Below, one piece after another: positions 8,485-46,972 of a stretch of DNA of 61,879 nucleotides. The notes below the pieces were generated by a model, which saw only the letters and a program-made list of their open reading frames with translations, was not told the origin of the DNA and made no database searches. Made by a program: the position numbers and the translations under genes. Origin of the DNA: a virus; IMG/VR virus record IMGVR_UViG_3300032073_003536, positions 1 through 61,879 of that record. One strand, given 5' to 3'. Each line of letters starts with the position of its first letter. Position 1 is the stretch's first letter.

Positions 8485-9253
8485 ACAAGCCTTAAATGAA
8501 CTGAACACAAAGTATGCTAAAACACTAGAGATGTTAGACAGTTCTCTAGATGTTATAGAAGACTTAGAAAATGAAGTTGATGAACTAAAAACTACTAACA
8601 ATATTTTACAAAAAGATTTACTAAAGAAACCTAAAGTAATAACTAAGGAGATAGAAGTTGAAAAAGTCGTTGAGAAGGTTGTCGAAGTTGAGAGAAAGGT
8701 CGAGGTCCCAAAGGAGACAGTGGTCACTCGCGAAGTCAAAGTCCCAGGACCCGAGCGGATTGTTGAAGTCCCAGGACCCGAACGAGTTGTCGAAAAAATA
8801 GTAGAAGTTGAAAAAATTGTACAAGTGCCTGGACCAGAAAGGCGTATAGAAGTTCCTATAGAAAAAATTGTACAAGTGCCTGGACCAGAAAGGATTGTTA
8901 CTAAAGAGGTCCCTGGCCCAGAAGTTATAATCACTAAAGAAGTACCAGGACCTGAACGTGTAGTACAAGTTGAAGTACCTGTAGAAAAGATTGTAGAAAA
9001 GATTGTCAAAATTCCAGGAGAGAAACCTGATGTCATAGAAAAAGCATCCACTAAAGATTTACGTGAAGCCGCAAGGATTATGGCTATGAGTGAATTCAAT
9101 AAAGAAGGATTCAGTGAGGAAGAAATATTCAATATGTTGCAGAAAAGTAGTGAAGAAGATGTAAATAAACAGTTGGGGGGATTTTGGGCAATACCATTAC
9201 CAGCCGACCAAGAAGAAACAGATGAAAATCAAACGAGGTATCAAAAGAAATAA
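8462..9253 (+). CDS. VPGPE-repeat, alveolin-like charged repeat protein
   Basis: 263 aa. N-terminal coiled coil (1-55), then about 130 residues (60-195) of alternating Val and charged residues built from VEKIVEV and VPGPERIV units: VPGPE occurs at least six times, spaced by EK(I/V)V(E/Q)V. A compact C-terminal part (about 200-250, LREAARIMAMSEFNKEGFS) looks helical. The EKIVEVP-type pattern resembles alveolin repeats of protist membrane skeletons; homology is not implied. The repeats use different synonymous codons (gtcccaggacccgag against gtgcctggaccagaa). It overlaps both the membrane coiled-coil gene and clpX. Confidence 0.8.
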   Translation: MTKKITVKQALNELNTKYAKTLEMLDSSLDVIEDLENEVDELKTTNNILQKDLLKKPKVITKEIEVEKVVEKVVEVERKVEVPKETVVTREVKVPGPERIVEVPGPERVVEKIVEVEKIVQVPGPERRIEVPIEKIVQVPGPERIVTKEVPGPEVIITKEVPGPERVVQVEVPVEKIVEKIVKIPGEKPDVIEKASTKDLREAARIMAMSEFNKEGFSEEEIFNMLQKSSEEDVNKQLGGFWAIPLPADQEETDENQTRYQKK

Positions 9254-10524
9254 TGTCTGACGATAAACAAGATAACAATTTAGAGTGTAGTTTTTGTGGT
9301 AAAAAACGCAACGATGTTAAAAAATTAATAGCAGGGCCTACATCCTATATTTGTAATGAATGTATTAGTATAAGTCATAAGATTATTAATGAAGAATATG
9401 ACGAAACAGACTTATTTGATGATGAGGAAATTCCTGCACCACAAGACATAAAAGACTATCTAGACGAGTATGTAATTAGTCAGGACTATGCTAAAGACAT
9501 ATTAAGTGTTTGTGCATATAATCATTACAAGAAGATTTTACATACAACAGAAAGCGAAAAGATAGAAAAAAGTAATGTACTATTATTAGGTAATACAGGT
9601 ACAGGTAAAACATTATTAGTTAAAACATTAGCAAATAAACTTAATGTACCTTTTGCAATAGCAGACGCAACTACACTAACTGAAGCAGGATATGTGGGAG
9701 AGGATGTAGAAAGTGTTATTGAACGTTTATTAAATGTATGCGACTGGAATGTACCATTAGCACAAAACGGTATAGTATTCATAGATGAGATAGATAAAAA
9801 AGCTCGTAGCAGTGAGTCTAATGCCAATACAAAGGACATAAGTGGCGAAGGTGTACAACAAGCACTCTTAAGACTTATAGAAGGTACAACTGTTAAAGTA
9901 TCAGCAAATGGATCAAAGCGAATGGATGATTACATAGAGTTTGATACATCAAATGTATTATTCATATTAGGCGGCGCATTTGTTGGCATAGATGAAATTG
10001 TTAAAAAGAAACTTAAACAAAGTTCAGTAGGATTCAATAGACCAATAAAAAGTACAACAGATAATAAAGATTGGATAGAACATGTAGAGCATGAAGATAT
10101 TATACAGTACGGGTTAATACCAGAATTTGCTGGACGATTGCCAAACATTGTTGGACTACTAGATTTAGATGAGGCAAATATGTTTAATATATTAAAAAAT
10201 TCTAAAGGTAGTGTAATTCATCAGGTTAAAAGATTATTAAAAATTGATGATATAAGTTTAGAATTTGAGGATCATTATCTTAGAGATGTTGCCAAGATAG
10301 CGGCAAAGAAAAAAGTAGGTGCAAGAGGTCTAAAAAGCATAGTAGAAAACAGTCTACATAATATTATGTTTAGAGCACCAGAGTTACAAAAAAGTGAAGT
10401 ACAACGTGTGGTGTTTAAAAAGTATCCATTTTCTGTTGACTTACATCCTACTATTGTGTATACTAATGGCATTAGTGAAATAGATAAAGACTATAAAATT
10501 AAATTAAGAGGGAACAGTGAGTAA
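9253..10524 (+). CDS. clpX: ClpX-like AAA+ unfoldase
   Basis: 423 aa, the usual ClpX length. Order of features: zinc finger Cys12, Cys15, Cys34, Cys37; Walker A GNTGTGKT (113-120); pore loop GYVG (about 148); Walker B VFIDEIDK; sensor and arginine-finger region with EFAGRLP; C-terminal small domain. It should unfold tagged proteins and feed them to ClpP. Two differences: the RKH pore loop region reads [13 protein letters not shown], without RKH, and the ClpP-docking IGF loop reads VGFN. Both suggest altered substrate choice or partner. The phage encodes ClpP at 46385 and ClpS at 22327. Confidence 0.95.
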
Positions 10525-20163: not shown

Positions 20164-21103
20164 ACACGGATTCGCAGGACGTGATATTCCTTCAATTGAT
20201 ATAGTAAAAGGTTTATTTGACACAATTGAACGAGAAGGAAAGTATAAACATATTATAGATACAAGTGTGTTGTGGAACTTTAATGATGTGTATAATCCTG
20301 ATCATTTCCCTAGAGTACAAAATCCTTTAGAAGGTCGTAAGAATTTAATGTTGCTAGTTCAATTAATGGACCCTGCTGGATATTTAGATAACAATAACGA
20401 TTTTAATAATAAAGGCTGGCATGGAATAGATATTTTAAGTGATAGAACATGCATGTATAACTTTTGGGCAGAGTATTGGTGTGATTACTGGACAAACAAT
20501 AATGAAAAATTTGAGACGGATGTTGAACTAAAATTTGATACACACTTTAAAAAATACCTAATGTATAATAGAAAGCCAGTGCACCATAGAGTAATAGCAG
20601 TTGACCAACTAGAAAAAGGAAACCTTTTAAACGACGGCTATGTGACTCTAGCAGACCAATTAACATTACCCATGCCTGGAGTTAAAGATGTATTTTTAGT
20701 TACAGATGGTGATATAGAAAAGAAATCAGATCCATCATTAGGTGATATGCATATATGGAATCATGCATTTGTGAATGTTATTAGTGAAACATCTATGGAT
20801 GGCACATTTATGAGTGAAAAAACATTTAAGCCTATTGTTGGTAAAAGGCCTTTTGTTAGTTTTAATAAAGAACGTACTCAACGTCTAATAGATGTAGGCT
20901 TTAAAACATTTGGTAATTTTTGGAATGAAAATTTAGATTGGTATGAGCAAGTAGACTTTATATGTAGACAAGATGTTGATACACTCAAAGGTTGGTGGGA
21001 ATCATATGAAATGCAAGATATATTAGAACACAACAAAATGCATTTCTGGAGCACCTATCAAGCCATAAACAAACAATTTCTATACGATTTTATAAAAAAA
21101 TAG
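20150..21103 (+). CDS. glycosyltransferase-like protein (EKTFKPI family)
   Basis: 317 aa from ATG 20150. The C-terminal FVNVISETSMDGTFMSEKTF, then KPIVGKRPFVSFNKERTQRL and VGFKTFGNFWNE resembles the nucleotide-sugar-binding half of fucosyltransferase or exostosin-like enzymes. The protein at 27937 shares this region (FFFTEKVLKPMAYGQALVV). Likely to modify surface sugars or a phage component (inference). Trp-rich N-terminal half is unassigned. Confidence 0.65.
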   Translation: MQYIEHGFAGRDIPSIDIVKGLFDTIEREGKYKHIIDTSVLWNFNDVYNPDHFPRVQNPLEGRKNLMLLVQLMDPAGYLDNNNDFNNKGWHGIDILSDRTCMYNFWAEYWCDYWTNNNEKFETDVELKFDTHFKKYLMYNRKPVHHRVIAVDQLEKGNLLNDGYVTLADQLTLPMPGVKDVFLVTDGDIEKKSDPSLGDMHIWNHAFVNVISETSMDGTFMSEKTFKPIVGKRPFVSFNKERTQRLIDVGFKTFGNFWNENLDWYEQVDFICRQDVDTLKGWWESYEMQDILEHNKMHFWSTYQAINKQFLYDFIKK

Positions 21104-21123
21104 CATTTTTTTGCAAAAAAAGG

Positions 21124-21153
21124 TTGATTTTTTGCCAAAAAGTACTATATAAT
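21124..21153 (+). promoter_or_regulatory. sigma70-like promoter for hsp20 leader
   Basis: AAAAAAGG then TTGATT (21124-21129), 18-nt spacer, TATAAT (21148-21153). About 450 nt upstream of hsp20. Confidence 0.75.
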
Positions 21154-21164
21154 ATATTAAGTTG

Positions 21165-21172
21165 TATAAATA
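21165..21172 (+). promoter_or_regulatory. perfect T4-late box
   Basis: TATAAATA, an exact match to the T4 late consensus, right behind the early-type promoter. Gives hsp20 two modes of expression. Confidence 0.65.
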
Positions 21173-21611
21173 ACTTTGCAATTTTACTAATGCAAGGGCA
21201 ATAGAATCGTAAGAAACTAAAGTCTACTGCAAAAGAAAAATTGCTATAATGATGCACAAGGTAAGTGAATCGTAAGAAACACAAACCGAATGGTATTATT
21301 ATATAAACTGGAGATTAAGTCTTCAAAAGTGCTCGGGCTTTGCAATATAAGTCTTCAAAAGAGCACGGACTTAAACCTCTTAGTTTTGATAGTTGAAGGA
21401 CACTCCTCGGAGACACAAATTCAACATTTGGGGTAACCAACAAACGGCTTTAGATGGCAACACCTGAAGACACGAAGAAGATTACCAAGTAGACTAGAGC
21501 GACAGGACACACACTAACGAATGCCGCTCTACTCCGCGAACTTTTTATTCGCCAAATGGGTTTAAGAAGTTTAAGATAGAAAAATAACTTGCTAAACAAT
21601 AGGAGATTATT
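21173..21611 (+). ncRNA. long structured leader / ncRNA upstream of hsp20
   Basis: About 440 nt without a gene. Visible parts: two tandem stem-loops, each with the 14-nt repeat GAATCGTAAGAAAC (21204-21217, 21267-21280), enclosed by GCAATTTT/AAAATTGC (21178-21185, 21237-21244) and TATAATgAT/ATTATTATA (21245-21253, 21295-21303); two tandem 24-nt units AAGTCTTCAAAAG..GC.CGG.CTT (21317-21340, 21349-21372) whose ends pair, one by G-U; GTTGAA/TTCAAC (21392-21425) around CTCC/GGAG; AGAGCG/CGCTCT (21496-21530); GCGAA/TTCGC (21536-21552). Either a multi-aptamer leader or separate small RNAs. Confidence 0.6.
21583..21611 (+). promoter_or_regulatory. ROSE-like RNA thermometer over hsp20 RBS
   Basis: The arm AATAACTTGCT (21583-21593) pairs across a 7-nt loop with AGGAGATTATT (21601-21611), directly before the ATG at 21612. 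UUGCU facing AGGAG, with a G-G opposition, is the signature of ROSE thermometers of alphaproteobacterial small heat-shock genes; AAUAA/UUAUU extends the stem. Predicted to hide the Shine-Dalgarno at low temperature. Confidence 0.6.
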
Positions 21612-22058
21612 ATGGTAAATAAGCAATTCAGAATCACATCAGATTCACTATCCCCACTATATAAAATGAGCGTCGGCTTTGACAGAATGGCAGAGCAGTT
21701 TTTTAACGACCCATCATTTGTAAATAACGGTACAGGCTATCCGCCTTACAACATTTCTAAAACATCAGATGACATCTATGAGATTACTCTTGCAGTAGCA
21801 GGATTTAAGAAAGGTGATATCGATATTAGTTTAGAAGACGGTACGTTAAAAATCGAAGGCACTTCAGGTGTACTTGATAGCGACAAAGAAGTTGAATACC
21901 TACATAAAGGTATTGCTGAAAGAAATTTCATTAGGACTTTCAAATTAGCAGAGTTTGTCGAAGTCAAAGATGCCAAGTTAGAAGACGGTATTTTAAAGGT
22001 AACATTGTTTAGAAATGTTCCTGACGCCCTTAAACCACAAAAGATTAAAATTTCTTAA
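21612..22058 (+). CDS. small heat-shock protein Hsp20 (alpha-crystallin)
   Basis: 148 aa. The alpha-crystallin domain runs from about residue 35 to 130: YNISKTSDDIYEITLAVAGF, DISLEDGTLKIEG, GIAERNFIRTFKLAEFV and DGILKVTLFRN. Holds unfolding proteins for ATP-dependent chaperones. N-terminal KMSVGFDRM matches the IbpA-type start. T4-like marine phages often encode it. Expression appears controlled by an unusually long leader ending in a thermometer-like hairpin. A weak terminator-like GAGGA/TCCTC hairpin with T-rich tail follows. Confidence 0.95.
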   Translation: MVNKQFRITSDSLSPLYKMSVGFDRMAEQFFNDPSFVNNGTGYPPYNISKTSDDIYEITLAVAGFKKGDIDISLEDGTLKIEGTSGVLDSDKEVEYLHKGIAERNFIRTFKLAEFVEVKDAKLEDGILKVTLFRNVPDALKPQKIKIS

Positions 22059-22326: not shown

Positions 22327-22626
22327 ATGGCAAAAGAGGCAGTAAAGACTAGAACTAGCACAGAACTAAGATATCCAGGCAGATATAATGTTGTCATTTA
22401 CAATGATGACTACACGCCTGTTGAATTTGTTATCAAGATGTTAGTAGAGGTATTTAATAAAGATGTTAATACTGCTAAGTCATTAACGCAGGAAATTCAT
22501 TCTCAAGGTGCAAGTATTGCCGGAACATACAATGCCGAGATTGCTGAACAAAAGTGTTCAGAAGGCATTTCAATTGCTAGAGCAAACGGACACCCACTTC
22601 AACTTAAAGTTGAAAAAGTAGAATGA
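22327..22626 (+). CDS. clpS: ClpS adaptor protein
   Basis: 99 aa. [20 protein letters not shown] is the N-degron-binding ClpS core with the Asn-Asp pair, followed by [20 protein letters not shown] and EIAEQKCSE with the conserved HxxG...G.Y..EIAE pattern. Delivers proteins with N-terminal bulky residues to ClpAP. No ClpA is encoded here, so it would work with host ClpA or a remodelled ClpX. ATGA overlap with sufB makes the two translationally coupled. Confidence 0.93.
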
Positions 22627-24068
22627 GCATAGATAATCTTAATAAAGAAAAATACGAACAAGGTTTCAATACAGATGTAGAAGCAGATAGTCTGCCGCCT
22701 GGTCTAGACGAAGATACAATAAGACAAATTAGTGCTATTAAAGAAGAACCACAATGGTTACTAGATTTTAGATTAAAAGCATACAAAAAATGGATTGCAA
22801 TGGACGAACCAGATTGGAGTGAGTTAGATTACACACCAATTGATTACCAAGCATTAAGTTACTACTCAGCACCAAAGACTAGAACTAAAGATGATATACC
22901 ACCCGAAATATTAGAAACTTTTGAAAAATTAGGTGTACCTTTACATGAACGTGATGCATTATTGGGAATAGAAAAAGACCCAAGTGTTATCCCAACTGTA
23001 GCAGTTGATGTAGTCTTTGATAGTGTTAGTATAGCAACAACATTCCAAACAGAATTAAAAAAACACGGTATTATATTTTGTAGTATTAGTGAAGCAGTAC
23101 AACATCACCCAGACTTAGTAAGAGAAAACTTAGGTAAAGTTATACCTTATTCAGATAATTATTTTGCTACACTTAATAGTGCTGTATTTACAGACGGCAC
23201 ATTCTGTTATATTCCCAAAGGTGTTAAGTGTCCTATGGAACTTAATACATACTTTAGAATCAATGCTCGTAATACAGGACAGTTTGAACGTACACTTATA
23301 ATAGCAGATGAAGGAAGTTATGTAAGTTATTTAGAAGGATGTACAGCACCAGCATATGATGAGAATACATTACATGCGGCATGTGTTGAACTTATATTAC
23401 ATGATGATGCAGAAATAAAATATTCAACAGTACAAAATTGGTATCCAGGAGATGAGAACGGAGTAGGCGGAGTTTATAACTTTGTAACAAAACGTGCAAG
23501 GTGTGAAGGCAAAAATAGTAAAGTTAGTTGGACACAGGTTGAAACAGGAAGTGCTGTTACATGGAAGTACCCAAGTTGCATACTTAAAGGTGAAGGAAGT
23601 ATCGGAGAATTTTTTAGTGTTGCAGTAACTAAAGGTAAGCAACAAGCAGATACAGGAACTAAGATGATTCACTTAGGTAAGAACACAAAGTCCACAGTTA
23701 TATCCAAAGGTATTAGTTTTGGCGATAGTACAAATACATATAGAGGTGCAGTTAAAGTTAATCCCGGAGCTCATAATGCCAGAAACTATACTAAGTGTGA
23801 TAGTTTAATGTTACAAGATAGCAGAGCATTAACTATACCATATGTAACAAGCGAAAATAATAGTGCTATGATTGAACACGAAGCAAGTGCAGGTAAAATT
23901 AGTGATGAACAATTATACTATTTGCAAAGTAGAGGCATGGATGAAGATGATGCTATGAATTTAATTGTAAATGGATTCTGTAAAGATGTATTTCAGAAGT
24001 TACCATTAGAGTTTGCCGCTGAAGCCAATAAATTATTAAGTGTAACACTAGAAGGAGCAGTAGGATAA
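22623..24068 (+). CDS. sufB: SufB Fe-S scaffold protein
   Basis: 481 aa, full length. Core of the SufBC2D scaffold on which Fe-S clusters are built. Visible: PEWxxxFRLKAY-type start ([16 protein letters not shown]), the central beta-helix with [20 protein letters not shown], and the C-terminal NYTKCDSLM holding the Cys equivalent to E. coli Cys405, then [20 protein letters not shown] and SRGM with the essential Glu. All key positions are kept. First of five overlapping or close suf genes. Confidence 0.96.
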
Positions 24069-24070
24069 TG

Positions 24071-24099
24071 TTGACATTACATAAAAAAGGTAGTAAAAT
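24071..24099 (+). promoter_or_regulatory. sigma70-like promoter between sufB and sufC
   Basis: TTGACA (24071-24076), 17-nt spacer, TAAAAT (24094-24099) in the 37-nt gap. It would allow extra sufCDST transcript. Confidence 0.55.
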
Positions 24100-24105
24100 A
24101 AGCGA

Positions 24106-24801
24106 ATGCTAAAACTAAAGAATTGGGCAATAGAAAATGTTATACACAGTATCGATGTAGATTTTGATGCTGGGCGTACTTATGTGGTTATGGGTGCAAA
24201 TGGTGTAGGTAAAAGTACATTGTTACATAGCATTATGGGTAAACCTGGATTAGAAACATCCGGTTCTGCAGAATTTTTAGATGTAGAGATATCAGATATG
24301 GAAGTAAATGAACGTGCTGATATGGGGATGTTTATAGGTTTCCAAGCACCTACTAGTATACCAGGACTTAGTAACTTTCAATTTATTAAACAAGTTAAAG
24401 AACTATCTGTAACAGATATCAAAGATAATCTTACACAATTCAAAGATTTAAGTTCAAAAATGAAACTGCCCGACGATTGGGATAAACGTAATCTAAATAC
24501 AGATGCAAGTGGCGGTGAGAAGAAAAAGAACGAATTAATACAAATGTTAATGATGGATACCAAACTTGCAATGTTAGATGAGCCTGACAGTGGACTAGAT
24601 GTTGACGGCATAAAAACACTTACAGAACAATTAAACAATTGGAGAACAAAAGACAATACTCTTATAGTTGTAACACATTACGATAAACTAATTGAAGGAC
24701 TAAATCCTGATGCAATATTTGTATTGAAGAAAGACCACATAGTAGGTGGTGATAAATCTCTAGCAGATAAAATATTTGCAGAAGGGTTTGATAGTGTATA
24801 A
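24106..24801 (+). CDS. sufC: SufC ABC-type ATPase
   Basis: 231 aa soluble ABC ATPase driving conformational change of SufBD. Walker A GANGVGKST (30-38), Q-loop GFQAP, signature TDASGGEKKKNELIQ, Walker B LAMLDEPDSGLDVDG, and the switch His in VVTHYDK. SufC-type SGGEKKR..E and DSGLDxD wording makes this SufC, not a transporter. No membrane partner nearby. Length is slightly under the usual ~248 aa. The start ATG lies 7 nt downstream of the -10 box, so its leader may be extremely short. Confidence 0.95.
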   Translation: MLKLKNWAIENVIHSIDVDFDAGRTYVVMGANGVGKSTLLHSIMGKPGLETSGSAEFLDVEISDMEVNERADMGMFIGFQAPTSIPGLSNFQFIKQVKELSVTDIKDNLTQFKDLSSKMKLPDDWDKRNLNTDASGGEKKKNELIQMLMMDTKLAMLDEPDSGLDVDGIKTLTEQLNNWRTKDNTLIVVTHYDKLIEGLNPDAIFVLKKDHIVGGDKSLADKIFAEGFDSV

Positions 24802-26062
24802 ACAACTTTACGGTACTAGGTTATTAGAAAATCAGTTTGGCAAAGATGTATATTTTACCTTGCATGACGTAGCAGACTATGTCACATCAGACGAGTATAT
24901 AGATGGCATAGATTCTAACTACTGGTCTCACAAATTACCACAATACAACAAAACATATAAACATAATCTTATAAATTTAAAAGATGATGGTCTACCTACT
25001 AAGCGAAGTGAACAGTTTAATTTTGCAAACTTACATAAATTATATTCATTAGAAATACTTAATAGTCAGCCTACACAAGGTCTCGATTTAGAAAAGTTTA
25101 GTTACCTTGCAAACCAAGATAGAACTATTGTATTAAACGATAGTAATGTTGTTACTACAAATGACTTAGGCAAAAAGGCTCCGTTTAATGTACAGATATT
25201 GGATAGTATAACTGTTAATAAGAATAGAATGTCGGAATATATACAGTTATTGCATCAAGAAGAAAATTTAACTAGACTCACATACGCATTAAGTCCATTT
25301 CCTAATATTATTATTTTTCCAAGCGGCAGTAAAGAGTCTTTTAAAAAGAATCCATTAAGCATACAATATTTAAACTCAGGAGAAGATCCAAAATTAGATT
25401 GTAATACAACTATATTTGATATTCAATATAATACTAAAGTAAAATTAAATGAAACTGTTAAAACAACAGCAGGTCAAATGAACTATAGTATGTATATTCT
25501 AAGAGAAAATTCAGAACTAGTAATAGACAGAAAGTCAAAAGACTCCGGCGGGTGGAATATATTTGATAGTGTGTTCATTTGTCATCCTGGCAGTAAACTT
25601 ACAGTTAATTTTACTAACACAGGAAGTCAATACACACAAGAAAATTTTTATATAAACAGTAGCAGTAAGACTACTGTAAATATTAAAGGCAGAAATAAAA
25701 TATTCAGAGGTAACAATTATCACCAATATGTTTATCAAAAAAGTGACGACCCTGATAATTATAGTAGTATAGATATTAAAAATGTAGGTAAAGAATTCGC
25801 ATCAACAAGTTTCATAGGAAGATATGATGTTGGTGCATTAAGTATAGATTTTGATGGTGATATGAACAATCAAAATTTAATGTTAGACAAGAATGTAAAA
25901 ATGCATACTCGCCCTATTTTAGATATACATACAAAAGAAATAAAATGTCAGCATGGCTGTACTGTAAGTAATGTAAATGAAGAACACATATATTACTTGC
26001 AGAGTAAAGGTATGGATAAGAGTCAAGCAACTGACCTATTAGTAGAGAGTTTTTTATGTTAA
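24794..26062 (+). CDS. sufD: SufD Fe-S scaffold subunit
   Basis: 422 aa from GTG 24794 (AGAAGGG 7 nt upstream, overlapping sufC). Divergent N-terminal half; C-terminal half has the SufB/SufD fold: RPILDIHTKEIKCQHGCTVS with the His equivalent to SufD His360, then NEEHIYYLQSKGMDKSQATD. Forms the SufBC2D complex with sufB and sufC products; needed for iron entry in E. coli. Overlaps sufS by 7 nt. Confidence 0.9.
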   Translation: MYKQLYGTRLLENQFGKDVYFTLHDVADYVTSDEYIDGIDSNYWSHKLPQYNKTYKHNLINLKDDGLPTKRSEQFNFANLHKLYSLEILNSQPTQGLDLEKFSYLANQDRTIVLNDSNVVTTNDLGKKAPFNVQILDSITVNKNRMSEYIQLLHQEENLTRLTYALSPFPNIIIFPSGSKESFKKNPLSIQYLNSGEDPKLDCNTTIFDIQYNTKVKLNETVKTTAGQMNYSMYILRENSELVIDRKSKDSGGWNIFDSVFICHPGSKLTVNFTNTGSQYTQENFYINSSSKTTVNIKGRNKIFRGNNYHQYVYQKSDDPDNYSSIDIKNVGKEFASTSFIGRYDVGALSIDFDGDMNNQNLMLDKNVKMHTRPILDIHTKEIKCQHGCTVSNVNEEHIYYLQSKGMDKSQATDLLVESFLC

Positions 26063-27285
26063 GAGCGTACCCAAAAGCAAAGAGTATTAAAGAGATTAGG
26101 AATTGCTTTCCTAGTTTAGCATATACAGAACTAGCCTATTTAGATAATGCGGCTAGTACACAAACTGTTGACAGTTCGATTAAAGCAGTCAGCGACTATC
26201 ATTATAATTATAGAGCAAATGTTCATAGAGGTGATTTTGAAACTAGTAGTATTGCTAGTGAGATATATGACCAAGCAAGAGTAGAAATAGCAAAATTAAT
26301 TAATTGTGAAATAGAAGAAGTTGCATTTACAAAAGGCACAACCCATAGTTTAAACATTGTTACTAATTGGTTACAAGATGATAGAAAAGTAATAGTTACA
26401 GAGTTAGAACATCACAGTTTATTAATGCCTTGGTTAAAATCTGGTAAAACACAAAACGGTGGAGATTTAATTGTTGTACCAGCAAGTGACCATGGCGATG
26501 TTAGTTTAGAAGATTTCACAAAAGCATGTAAAGAAAATCCAGGATCAATATGTGCATTCCTTACACAAAGCAATTTAACAGGAATGTGTCTACCTTGGGA
26601 ACATATGGTTAGAATAGCAAAAGAATATGATTGTGAAGTTATTATAGATGCATGTCAAAGCATAGGTCATAAACCTATGGATGTTCAAGCAAACAATATA
26701 GACTGGATGGCATTTAGCGGACACAAGATGTTTGCAAGTACAGGAGTTGGAGTTTTATTCCATAGGGGTGGCTTTGGTGACATAGATAATGCCTATGATT
26801 TAGGAGGCGGTACAGCAGAGCATGTAGACTTCGACGGATACCATTTACATAGTGACTTTAGAAAAATAGAAGCAGGCACACCAGACATTGCAGGAATACA
26901 TAGTATAGGAGCCGCGGCAAAATGGATGCAAGAAATAGGCTATAAAGACATACAAGAATGTGAAGCAGAATTTTTTAACATGCTTGACGACAAAGGATTA
27001 TTCCACATACCAGAACTTAAACTTATTGGTCCTGTTGCACCAAGAAGTGTGTATAGTTTTGTAACAGAATTTAATCCAAGTGACTTAGCAGGGTTTTTAA
27101 GTTTTGATAAAGTATGTGTAAGAACGGGCCATATGTGTGCCCAGCCTGCCAGTAGACGTTACAATAAAAACAATACAGGTGTATTTAGAATAAGTACTGC
27201 ACCGTACAACAACGAACTAGATTGCGTAAAATTAGTAGAGGGTATATGGAAAGCGATGGAAAAGTTGGGCTTCAAGAACAGTTAG
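26056..27285 (+). CDS. sufS: SufS cysteine desulfurase
   Basis: 409 aa, group II PLP enzyme that takes sulfur from cysteine. LAYLDNAASTQ start, TELEHHSLLMPW, the PLP Lys in FSGHKMFASTGVGVL (about 222), and the persulfide Cys in CVRTGHMCAQP (about 361). All catalytic residues are present and length equals bacterial SufS. Group II enzymes need SufE, which the phage carries at 45993. The small subunit end overlaps the next gene by 40 nt. Confidence 0.96.
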   Translation: MLRAYPKAKSIKEIRNCFPSLAYTELAYLDNAASTQTVDSSIKAVSDYHYNYRANVHRGDFETSSIASEIYDQARVEIAKLINCEIEEVAFTKGTTHSLNIVTNWLQDDRKVIVTELEHHSLLMPWLKSGKTQNGGDLIVVPASDHGDVSLEDFTKACKENPGSICAFLTQSNLTGMCLPWEHMVRIAKEYDCEVIIDACQSIGHKPMDVQANNIDWMAFSGHKMFASTGVGVLFHRGGFGDIDNAYDLGGGTAEHVDFDGYHLHSDFRKIEAGTPDIAGIHSIGAAAKWMQEIGYKDIQECEAEFFNMLDDKGLFHIPELKLIGPVAPRSVYSFVTEFNPSDLAGFLSFDKVCVRTGHMCAQPASRRYNKNNTGVFRISTAPYNNELDCVKLVEGIWKAMEKLGFKNS

Positions 27286-27581
27286 TAGACCAAGTTATTG
27301 CAAATTTAAGAAGAGTCTTTGATCCAGAGATTCATTTAAATGTTTATGACTTAGGTTTGATATATAATGTCCAAGTAAATCAAGAATATGATGCAGTCGT
27401 TACTATGACCCTGACATCTCCAAATTGTCCAGCCGCAGAGATACTACCAATGGAAATAGAATTTGCAACTCGTAGTGTACAAGGATTAAATAAAGTTCAT
27501 GTACATTTAACATTTGATCCTCCATGGAATCCAGATACAATGGTAAGCGATGAAGGGAAGTATCAACTAGGAATATTATAA
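27246..27581 (+). CDS. sufT: SufT/MIP18-family Fe-S maturation protein
   Basis: 111 aa from ATG 27246 (GAGGG RBS inside sufS). VFDPEIHLNVYDLGLIYNV and MTLTSPNCPAAEILP, with the single conserved Cys, are the DUF59/MIP18 signature shared by SufT and PaaD. Acts in loading Fe-S clusters onto target proteins. It closes the sufBCDST run; the following ATG overlaps its stop (TAATG). Confidence 0.88.
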   Translation: MESDGKVGLQEQLVDQVIANLRRVFDPEIHLNVYDLGLIYNVQVNQEYDAVVTMTLTSPNCPAAEILPMEIEFATRSVQGLNKVHVHLTFDPPWNPDTMVSDEGKYQLGIL

Positions 27582-45992: not shown

Positions 45993-46388
45993 ATGCAATT
46001 AGACAAAGAAGATTTAGACTTCCTTAATGAATTAGAGCCTAGCGACTTGTACGAATTAATCGTAGAAAAAGGAGTCGATACGGTACCAACTAAGGAACTA
46101 CTAGATGAATTATGTATAGATGATAATCGTGTATACGGTTGTCAAAGTCTAGTATGGGTCAATAGAATTGACGATAACTGGTACTGGGAGAGCAATGCAT
46201 TTTTTGTACAAGGTCTAATAAATGTAGTGATGACTCATGTTGTACACATGACAGATGAAGAGATAGGTAAAATTAAAGTAGACGACTTTGCATTTATTTG
46301 TCCTGAAAAAGTAACGTGGGGAAGAGTAAGAGGCATAGAAAGTTTCTTGCGTAAATTAAAATTAATTGTTAACGGAGAAACTAAATGA
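45993..46388 (+). CDS. sufE: SufE sulfur-acceptor protein
   Basis: 131 aa. Takes persulfide sulfur from SufS and passes it to Suf[15 protein letters not shown] near residue 50 has the acceptor Cys in the RVxGCQSxVW context; [13 protein letters not shown] and [14 protein letters not shown] match the rest of SufE. Length fits (138 aa in E. coli). Stop overlaps clpP ATG (ATGA). Confidence 0.93.
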
Positions 46389-46972
46389 ATTTTGTACCAT
46401 ATGTAATAGAAAAAACAAGTAATGGCGAACGTAGTTATGATATCTATAGTAGATTATTAAAAGAACGTATTGTGTTTTTAAACGGAGAAGTAAACGATAC
46501 TGTAAGTAATAGTATTTGTGCTCAGTTACTTTTTTTAGAAGCAGAAGATCCAGATACAGATATAAATTTTTACATTAACTCGCCAGGCGGTGTAGTTACA
46601 AGTGGTATGGCTATGTACGATACCATGCAATACATTAAACCAGATATTTCAACTATTGTAATGGGACAAGCGGCTTCAATGGGTAGTTTATTAGCACAGT
46701 CGGGTGCGGCTGGAAAACGTTATATGTTGCCAGGTGCTAGACACATGATACACCAACCATTAGGCGGTGCAAGTGGACAAGCAAGTGATATAGAAATCCG
46801 TGCTAAAGAGATTGTAAGAATTAAGAAAGAACTTACTGAAGTGTATGTAAGACATAATACTAAAGATAAAACATTCCAAGACTTTGAAAGTGCTATGGAC
46901 AGAGATAATTTTATGACTGCCAAAGAAGCCTTAGATTTTGGGCTGGTAGACGAAATTATTACTAAGAGATAG
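46385..46972 (+). CDS. clpP: ClpP protease subunit
   Basis: 195 aa. Catalytic triad Ser98 (MGQAASMGS), His123 (HMIHQP) and Asp172 area (MDRDNFM); [18 protein letters not shown] and the handle helix are complete. Forms the tetradecameric chamber used by ClpX and ClpA. No propeptide is visible. With phage ClpX (9253) it may form a phage-specific protease or mix with the host one. Confidence 0.96.

Follow-up and report, generated by a model that had tools for sequence, protein, structure and literature searches.

Does a phage small heat-shock gene carry its own RNA thermometer? The question is raised by 29 nucleotides lying directly in front of hsp20 in a viral sequence, IMG/VR record IMGVR_UViG_3300032073_003536, positions 1 to 61,879. 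The whole of this 61,879-nucleotide stretch is referred to here as the window. The original prediction held that AATAACTTGCT (21583–21593) pairs with AGGAGATTATT (21601–21611), covering the Shine-Dalgarno (SD) sequence, and that the result is a ROSE element of the alphaproteobacterial type. Both segments are read directly at these positions, and the ATG of hsp20 follows at 21612. The defining feature of ROSE-like elements is a U(U/C)GCU that pairs with the SD and includes a bulged G (PMC11342760). Here, the anti-SD UUGCU (21589–21593) faces the SD AGGAG (21601–21605), 5′ of hsp20. The features at this end of the locus are as follows:

21583–21611, plus strand: hairpin B, ROSE-like (fold, alignments of relatives, pair counts)
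21612–22058, plus strand: hsp20, small heat-shock protein of 148 aa (Pfam PF00011 HSP20, E 4.5e-17; PHROG 432, E 9e-38)
22327–22626, plus strand: clpS, Clp protease adaptor, 3′ of hsp20 (Pfam ClpS, E 7e-25)

It is inferred that clpS is possibly co-transcribed with hsp20. It is followed by sufB and sufC-like genes, which were assigned by reading the translations only. Separately, the load of proteostasis and Fe-S genes in this phage is unusual: it has ClpX, ClpS and a Clp protease (9253–10524, 22327–22626 and 46385–46972) and an apparent suf iron-sulphur cluster adjoining hsp20 (22623–27581), for which the Suf names again come from the translations.

When the 29-mer is folded on its own, the proposed pairing is recovered and consists of five A-U pairs, a C·A mismatch, U-G, U-A, a G·G mismatch, C-G, U-A and A-U. 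Its stability at 37 °C is low, −1.8 kcal/mol (z −1.96); 12 of 200 shuffled sequences do equally well, and at the same temperature other pairings compete within the local fold of the window. As the energy is weak, this fold alone is unconvincing, and it is the comparison with relatives that makes the case. AACTTGCT and AGGAG are kept in all 11 of the nearest relatives, which were identified by protein similarity, and the loop and outer stem vary. Loss of the pairing in relatives would have refuted the original prediction; instead, the pairing is conserved.

The substitutions in hairpin B also preserve pairing. In alignment A6, which covers the clade of the window, a pair inside the core changes from U-A to A-U in seven of 19 leaders, and one of five pairs has a double compensation. 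The swaps that maintain the helix are C-G to G-C, U-A to A-U and U-G to C-G, with less room to vary than in hairpin A, which is described below. Among 122 distinct leaders, UUGCU is present in 106 and UCGCU in 16. The G of this motif is either bulged or opposite another G in the folds, and the pairs that flank it covary.

Small heat-shock genes are frequent among T4-like phages from the sea, with matches in 507 phage records. The leaders were sampled from the 11 relatives and then a wider search, which gave 80 loci, and from 22 regions of phage records, nearly all of them isolates. Leaders from L121 onward were fetched with a pattern that fixes part of hairpin B and leaves hairpin A unselected. 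U(U/C)GCU followed by GGA at an ATG occurs in 110 of 113 phage hsp20 leaders, including those of the isolates S-PM2, HTVC008M, Mosig, Melnitz, Syn1, Phosso and Atu_ph07. By reading, the three exceptions appear to be variants (UUGCG in PA5oct, ACGCU in S-TIM54 and UGCCU in Salicola phage SCTP-2). At the candidate starts of other open reading frames in the same DNA, the pattern is found in 6 of 1,431 cases: three at dnaK, one at groES and two by chance, where hairpin A is lacking. The identical script matches 89 of 95 hsp20 loci, and three of its six misses (L005, L040 and L071) carry the element on inspection.

Scans that take no account of genes give the same picture. Matches lie at hsp20 in 106 of 127 cases, with about ten at dnaK and two at groES, and for the UCGCU form 93 of 120 matches are at hsp20. 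In 18 phage records (approximately 2 Mb), CTTGCTN{2,14}AGGAG has 31 occurrences, roughly one for each genome and most of them at hsp20, against four for the reversed pattern. These data bear on one alternative, which is that the complementarity arose by chance in AT-rich DNA. That explanation could draw on the weakness of the isolated hairpin and on the score of the window copy in covariance model R1, which is at background (see below). It retains virtually no probability and is already refuted by the comparison, as conservation in 110 of the 113 leaders, covariation and specificity for chaperone genes rule it out.

The original prediction pictured a single hairpin. This was incomplete, since the element comprises two hairpins, and both hairpin A and a long structured leader had been missed. 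The second hairpin is:

21538–21572, plus strand: hairpin A, a long stem with a UU/UU internal loop, C-G, a bulged G (21551) and CC-AAAU-GG (folds, covariation)

Hairpin A is nearly universal in phage hsp20 leaders, where it lies just 5′ of hairpin B. In its general form, a stem without fixed sequence leads through a Y-R pair to a bulged G and CC, and GG follows a loop that is often GAAA or UUCG; these two loops interchange between leaders. Covariation was scored in the flanks after anchoring on the core only. For 116 distinct leaders the outer stem pairs in 73% of cases versus 45.5% with shuffled partners (z 16.5). In a seed of 12 sequences, pairing holds in 96.4% of cells, with double compensations in 19, and in the clade of the window (A6) 6 of the 11 pairs have a double compensation. 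The arrangement of two hairpins, with hairpin B holding the SD, is thus backed by covariation.

In other phages the late promoter motif lies immediately 5′ of hairpin A. In the clade of the window approximately 370 additional nucleotides separate the two, and the thermometer forms the 3′ end of a structured leader of about 430 nucleotides. The parts of this leader are:

21165–21172, plus strand: TATAAATA, a T4-type late promoter motif (direct reading)
21178–21296, plus strand: variable 5′ part with two copies of a GUAA-loop hairpin module, AUC-GUAA-GA (alignments)
21317–21373, plus strand: optional module with two UCUUCAAAAG...CGG repeats and complementary GUGCUC/GAGCAC (fold)
21432–21531, plus strand: conserved 3′ domain of the long leader (RNAalifold on 19 leaders, pair counts with controls)
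21432–21436 with 21482–21486, plus strand: helix GGUAA/UUACC (RNAalifold, 19 leaders)
21448–21469, plus strand: GNRA hairpin (RNAalifold, 19 leaders)
21495–21531, plus strand: helix UAGAGCG/CGCUCUA (RNAalifold, 19 leaders)

Most relatives keep the late motif where their leader begins, as seen in the alignment. By analogy with T4-like phages it is presumed to be the promoter, with the hsp20 transcript starting just downstream. Upstream of it and 3′ of the preceding gene is an AT-rich palindrome (21096–21150), a likely terminator, which also caused artefactual microRNA-like Rfam matches at these positions.

The 5′ modules (21178–21296) are gained and lost between relatives, with the flanking pairs read by eye. 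The optional module is missing in L002, L003, L006, L018 and L279, and its GUGCUC and GAGCAC segments are swapped in the alignments of L008 and L012. The region 21290–21640 folds with a z of −3.48. RNAalifold on the 19 leaders gives 32 pairs, 20 of them with double compensations, and 94.4% of cells pair versus 79.7% when shuffled and 38–56% when slid. The slid control flatters the prediction because that alignment had itself supplied the structure. No Rfam family corresponds to the structured part (21178–21531, ~350 nt), and its only DNA similarity to named phages was a spurious low-complexity match.

A leader with its own late-type promoter motif, this degree of structure and covariation, and a modular build could be a small RNA in its own right, encoded by a gene that simply stops beside hsp20. 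This is improbable. A search with its conserved motif found the long leader directly 5′ of the hsp20 thermometer in 17 of 17 contigs, no obvious terminator lies between the two, and the genes upstream vary between relatives. The long leader is better regarded as part of the hsp20 mRNA; its role is unknown, and perhaps it stabilises the message or adds a second input.

It is considered probable that the hsp20 leader is a two-hairpin, ROSE-like thermometer in which melting frees the SD, with the temperature response inferred from proven ROSE elements. In the proposed mechanism, the late phage promoter would produce the hsp20 mRNA, in which hairpin A is expected to fold as a stable platform. Hairpin B, in which weak pairs on either side of a bulged or mismatched G hold UUGCU to AGGAG, would keep ribosomes off. 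Warming of the infected cell would then melt hairpin B, freeing the SD so that Hsp20 is made; both repression and melting are inferences, the latter again from proven ROSE elements. What the comparison between phages establishes is the pairing in hairpin B, the presence of two hairpins and the association with chaperone genes.

Predicted melting adds little. In the isolated hairpin B, the probability of the core C-G pair is predicted to fall from 0.99 at 4 °C to 0.68 at 50 °C. In ViennaRNA calculations the mean opening of the SD between 10 and 37 °C is 0.04 for hsp20 leaders and 0.05 for other genes of the window, and for the proven E. coli ibpA almost no opening is predicted. As hsp20 leaders do not differ from other genes and a proven thermometer appears flat, this prediction is without power. 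The failure to separate hsp20 from other genes would suit a different explanation, namely that the hairpins are a fixed damper of translation, or a 5′ structure that stabilises the mRNA, with no useful response at ocean temperatures; stable 5′ hairpins right after promoters are, moreover, common in mRNAs. However, such a damper has no need of a conserved bulged G, an invariant U(U/C)GCU or placement at chaperone genes only, and this explanation is given a small chance.

The main rival is feedback by protein. Here, phage Hsp20 or host IbpA would bind the leader and repress translation until misfolded protein draws the chaperone away, so that the signal is protein damage and not temperature. In E. 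coli, IbpA acts through the ROSE-bearing ibpA 5′ UTR to repress translation of its own message (PMC10474464), and lytic infection is itself a protein-folding burden. Hairpin A is also highly constrained, even though hairpin II alone is enough for thermoregulation in Pseudomonas (PMC3669281). Yet feedback alone leaves unexplained the strict U(U/C)GCU/AGGA pairing with its bulged G, a motif known to melt on heating, and the element is also found at dnaK and groES. Feedback is regarded as unlikely, although not negligibly so, as the explanation in place of a thermometer; it could also work alongside temperature.

The presence of the element 5′ of phage dnaK and groES emerged from the gene-independent scan, in which matches away from hsp20 that have an upstream hairpin are mostly at dnaK, with two at groES. 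The dnaK genes with a ROSE-like leader are those of L096, L127, L165, L121, L129, L185, L209, L233 and L237, and the groES genes those of L172/L407 (G020) and L241 (G010). In L127 and L165, as in G018 and G019, dnaK and hsp20 stand in tandem with a separate element each, and G018 also has a virion structural gene. In G020, groES-groEL is followed by hsp20, with elements 5′ of groES and hsp20. The same element precedes these genes, and some phages thus appear to use it for joint control of a few chaperones.

Small proteins of approximately 60–85 aa are also encoded behind U(U/C)GCU-AAGGAG (L430, L492, L523, L527, L442, L477, L470 and L156), and several of these loci have a GCC..GGG hairpin as well. 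No clear Pfam or PHROG family was found for them, and the idea that small proteins behind some elements resemble phasins was not backed by any profile.

In bacterial contigs the pattern, when 5′ of an open reading frame, is mostly at hsp20. Many of these copies are from uncultured marine Alphaproteobacteria, and their hairpin A is alike. Bacterial dnaK genes with UUGCU-AAGGAG at the start and without hairpin A were seen in L295, which is titled uncultured Alphaproteobacteria, and in L372. That cyanophages carry a thermometer of proteobacterial type points to a possible joint transfer of gene and switch between host groups, in a direction that is not established.

Conservation of the hairpin in nearly every phage with hsp20 suggests that many marine phages let temperature time the synthesis of chaperones. 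A broader reading is held only tentatively, at somewhat less than even chances: T4-like and other marine phages would possess a heat-shock regulon, in which one ROSE-type thermometer with differing stems stands at hsp20, dnaK and groES, and a clade-specific RNA of ~400 nt adds a second signal. If the leaders do respond, a large share of marine phages would sense warming through their own mRNA, without the heat-shock factors of the host, which would be relevant to infection in warming seas.

Covariance models were used to place the element among known RNAs. The original prediction had proposed an Infernal search with the ROSE models, and the outcome was mixed. Classical ROSE (RF00435) had no match in 18 phage records, Rfam at gathering cut-offs had none in the window, and no phage leader exceeded the cut-off of any Rfam ROSE model. 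ROSE_3, below its threshold, nevertheless fell exactly on several phage leaders as the best match of the whole genome, with E values of 1.1e-7 for the dnaK leader of G017 and 1.6e-6 for Melnitz hsp20; the L258 leader was matched with an E value of 7e-6. Failing an Rfam cut-off does not exclude membership, because the E. coli ibpB leader reaches just 15 bits in Rfam and is likewise missed.

Model R1 was built from 12 phage leaders only (alignment A4). Its best matches are hsp20, dnaK or groES leaders in most of 42 whole records, and in a mixed search it matches the E. coli ibpB leader (E 0.006). The window copy scores 8.2 bits with R1 and 10.7 with ROSE_3, no better than background in 62 kb. 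This copy is atypical and from a divergent clade, with the UU/UU internal loop in hairpin A and a longer spacer. Its membership rests on the aligned relatives (A6) and on two intermediates, L016 and L024, which score 27–31 bits with R1. Another Rfam family, freshwater-2 (RF02980), aligns at the L258 leader with 25.8 bits against a cut-off of 49.9 and was deemed a separate RNA. It occurs above the cut-off at G005:C1:170383-170466 (minus strand) and G006:C1:104619-104701 (plus strand), each time directly 5′ of an open reading frame starting with MGRP. To our knowledge, this RNA has no known function.

Phage thermometers have been described before: in lambda cIII, in SP-beta blyA and at a gut-phage sigma-70 gene, none of them reported as ROSE-like or 5′ of a chaperone gene (PMC11182007). 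The cIII element is a conformational switch and that of blyA a fourU element (PMC11182007 and general knowledge). By the count of its authors in 2024, the blyA element was just the second thermometer from any phage genome (PMC11182007). The open-access literature yielded no ROSE-like thermometer from a phage, with subscription papers and preprints outside the scope; the open-access work on cyanophage Hsp20 that was examined does not mention a thermometer, and nothing was found there on regulation of phage hsp20. As the search covered open-access sources only, novelty is provisional, and the short ROSE-like thermometer is apparently undescribed in phages.

In known ROSE-like thermometers, between two and four hairpins precede a small heat-shock gene (PMC3669281, PMC11342760, PMC11182007). 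On its sequence features the assignment to this class stands, as U(U/C)GCU against the SD, the bulged or mismatched G, the hairpins and hsp20 are all present; the alphaproteobacterial type is less well supported. Classical alphaproteobacterial ROSE (RF00435) likewise has the U(U/C)GCU/SD core hairpin but differs in having three to four hairpins. The phage leaders lie closer to the short type of Pseudomonas and E. coli, as represented by ROSE_3 and the ibpB leader. In E. coli, ibpB has AUGCUC-[G]-CC-GUCA-GG-GAGCAU and later UCGCUUCUUAGAAGGAG (UCGCU..AGGAG), and ibpA, which matches Rfam ROSE_2 (RF01832), has GACGC-[G]-CC-UGAU-GG-GUGUUC and then UCGCU..AGGAG. Both differ from the phage leaders by an additional hairpin between the two shared ones. 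The short form with two hairpins is known from Pseudomonas (PMC3669281), where the ibpA element (ROSE_3, RF02523; PMC3669281) has ..YGCC..GGR.. in hairpin I and U(U/C)GCU against the SD in hairpin II, and also lies 5′ of a small heat-shock gene. The alignment of ROSE_3 with the phage leader L258 covers the entire model. Unlike Pseudomonas ibpA, the phage copies are rich in A and T, do not reach the Rfam cut-off, stand behind late-type promoters and occur also at dnaK and groES, which would broaden the set of genes known for the ROSE class. Provisionally, what is new here is the genomic setting, the target genes and, in the clade of the window, the structured leader.
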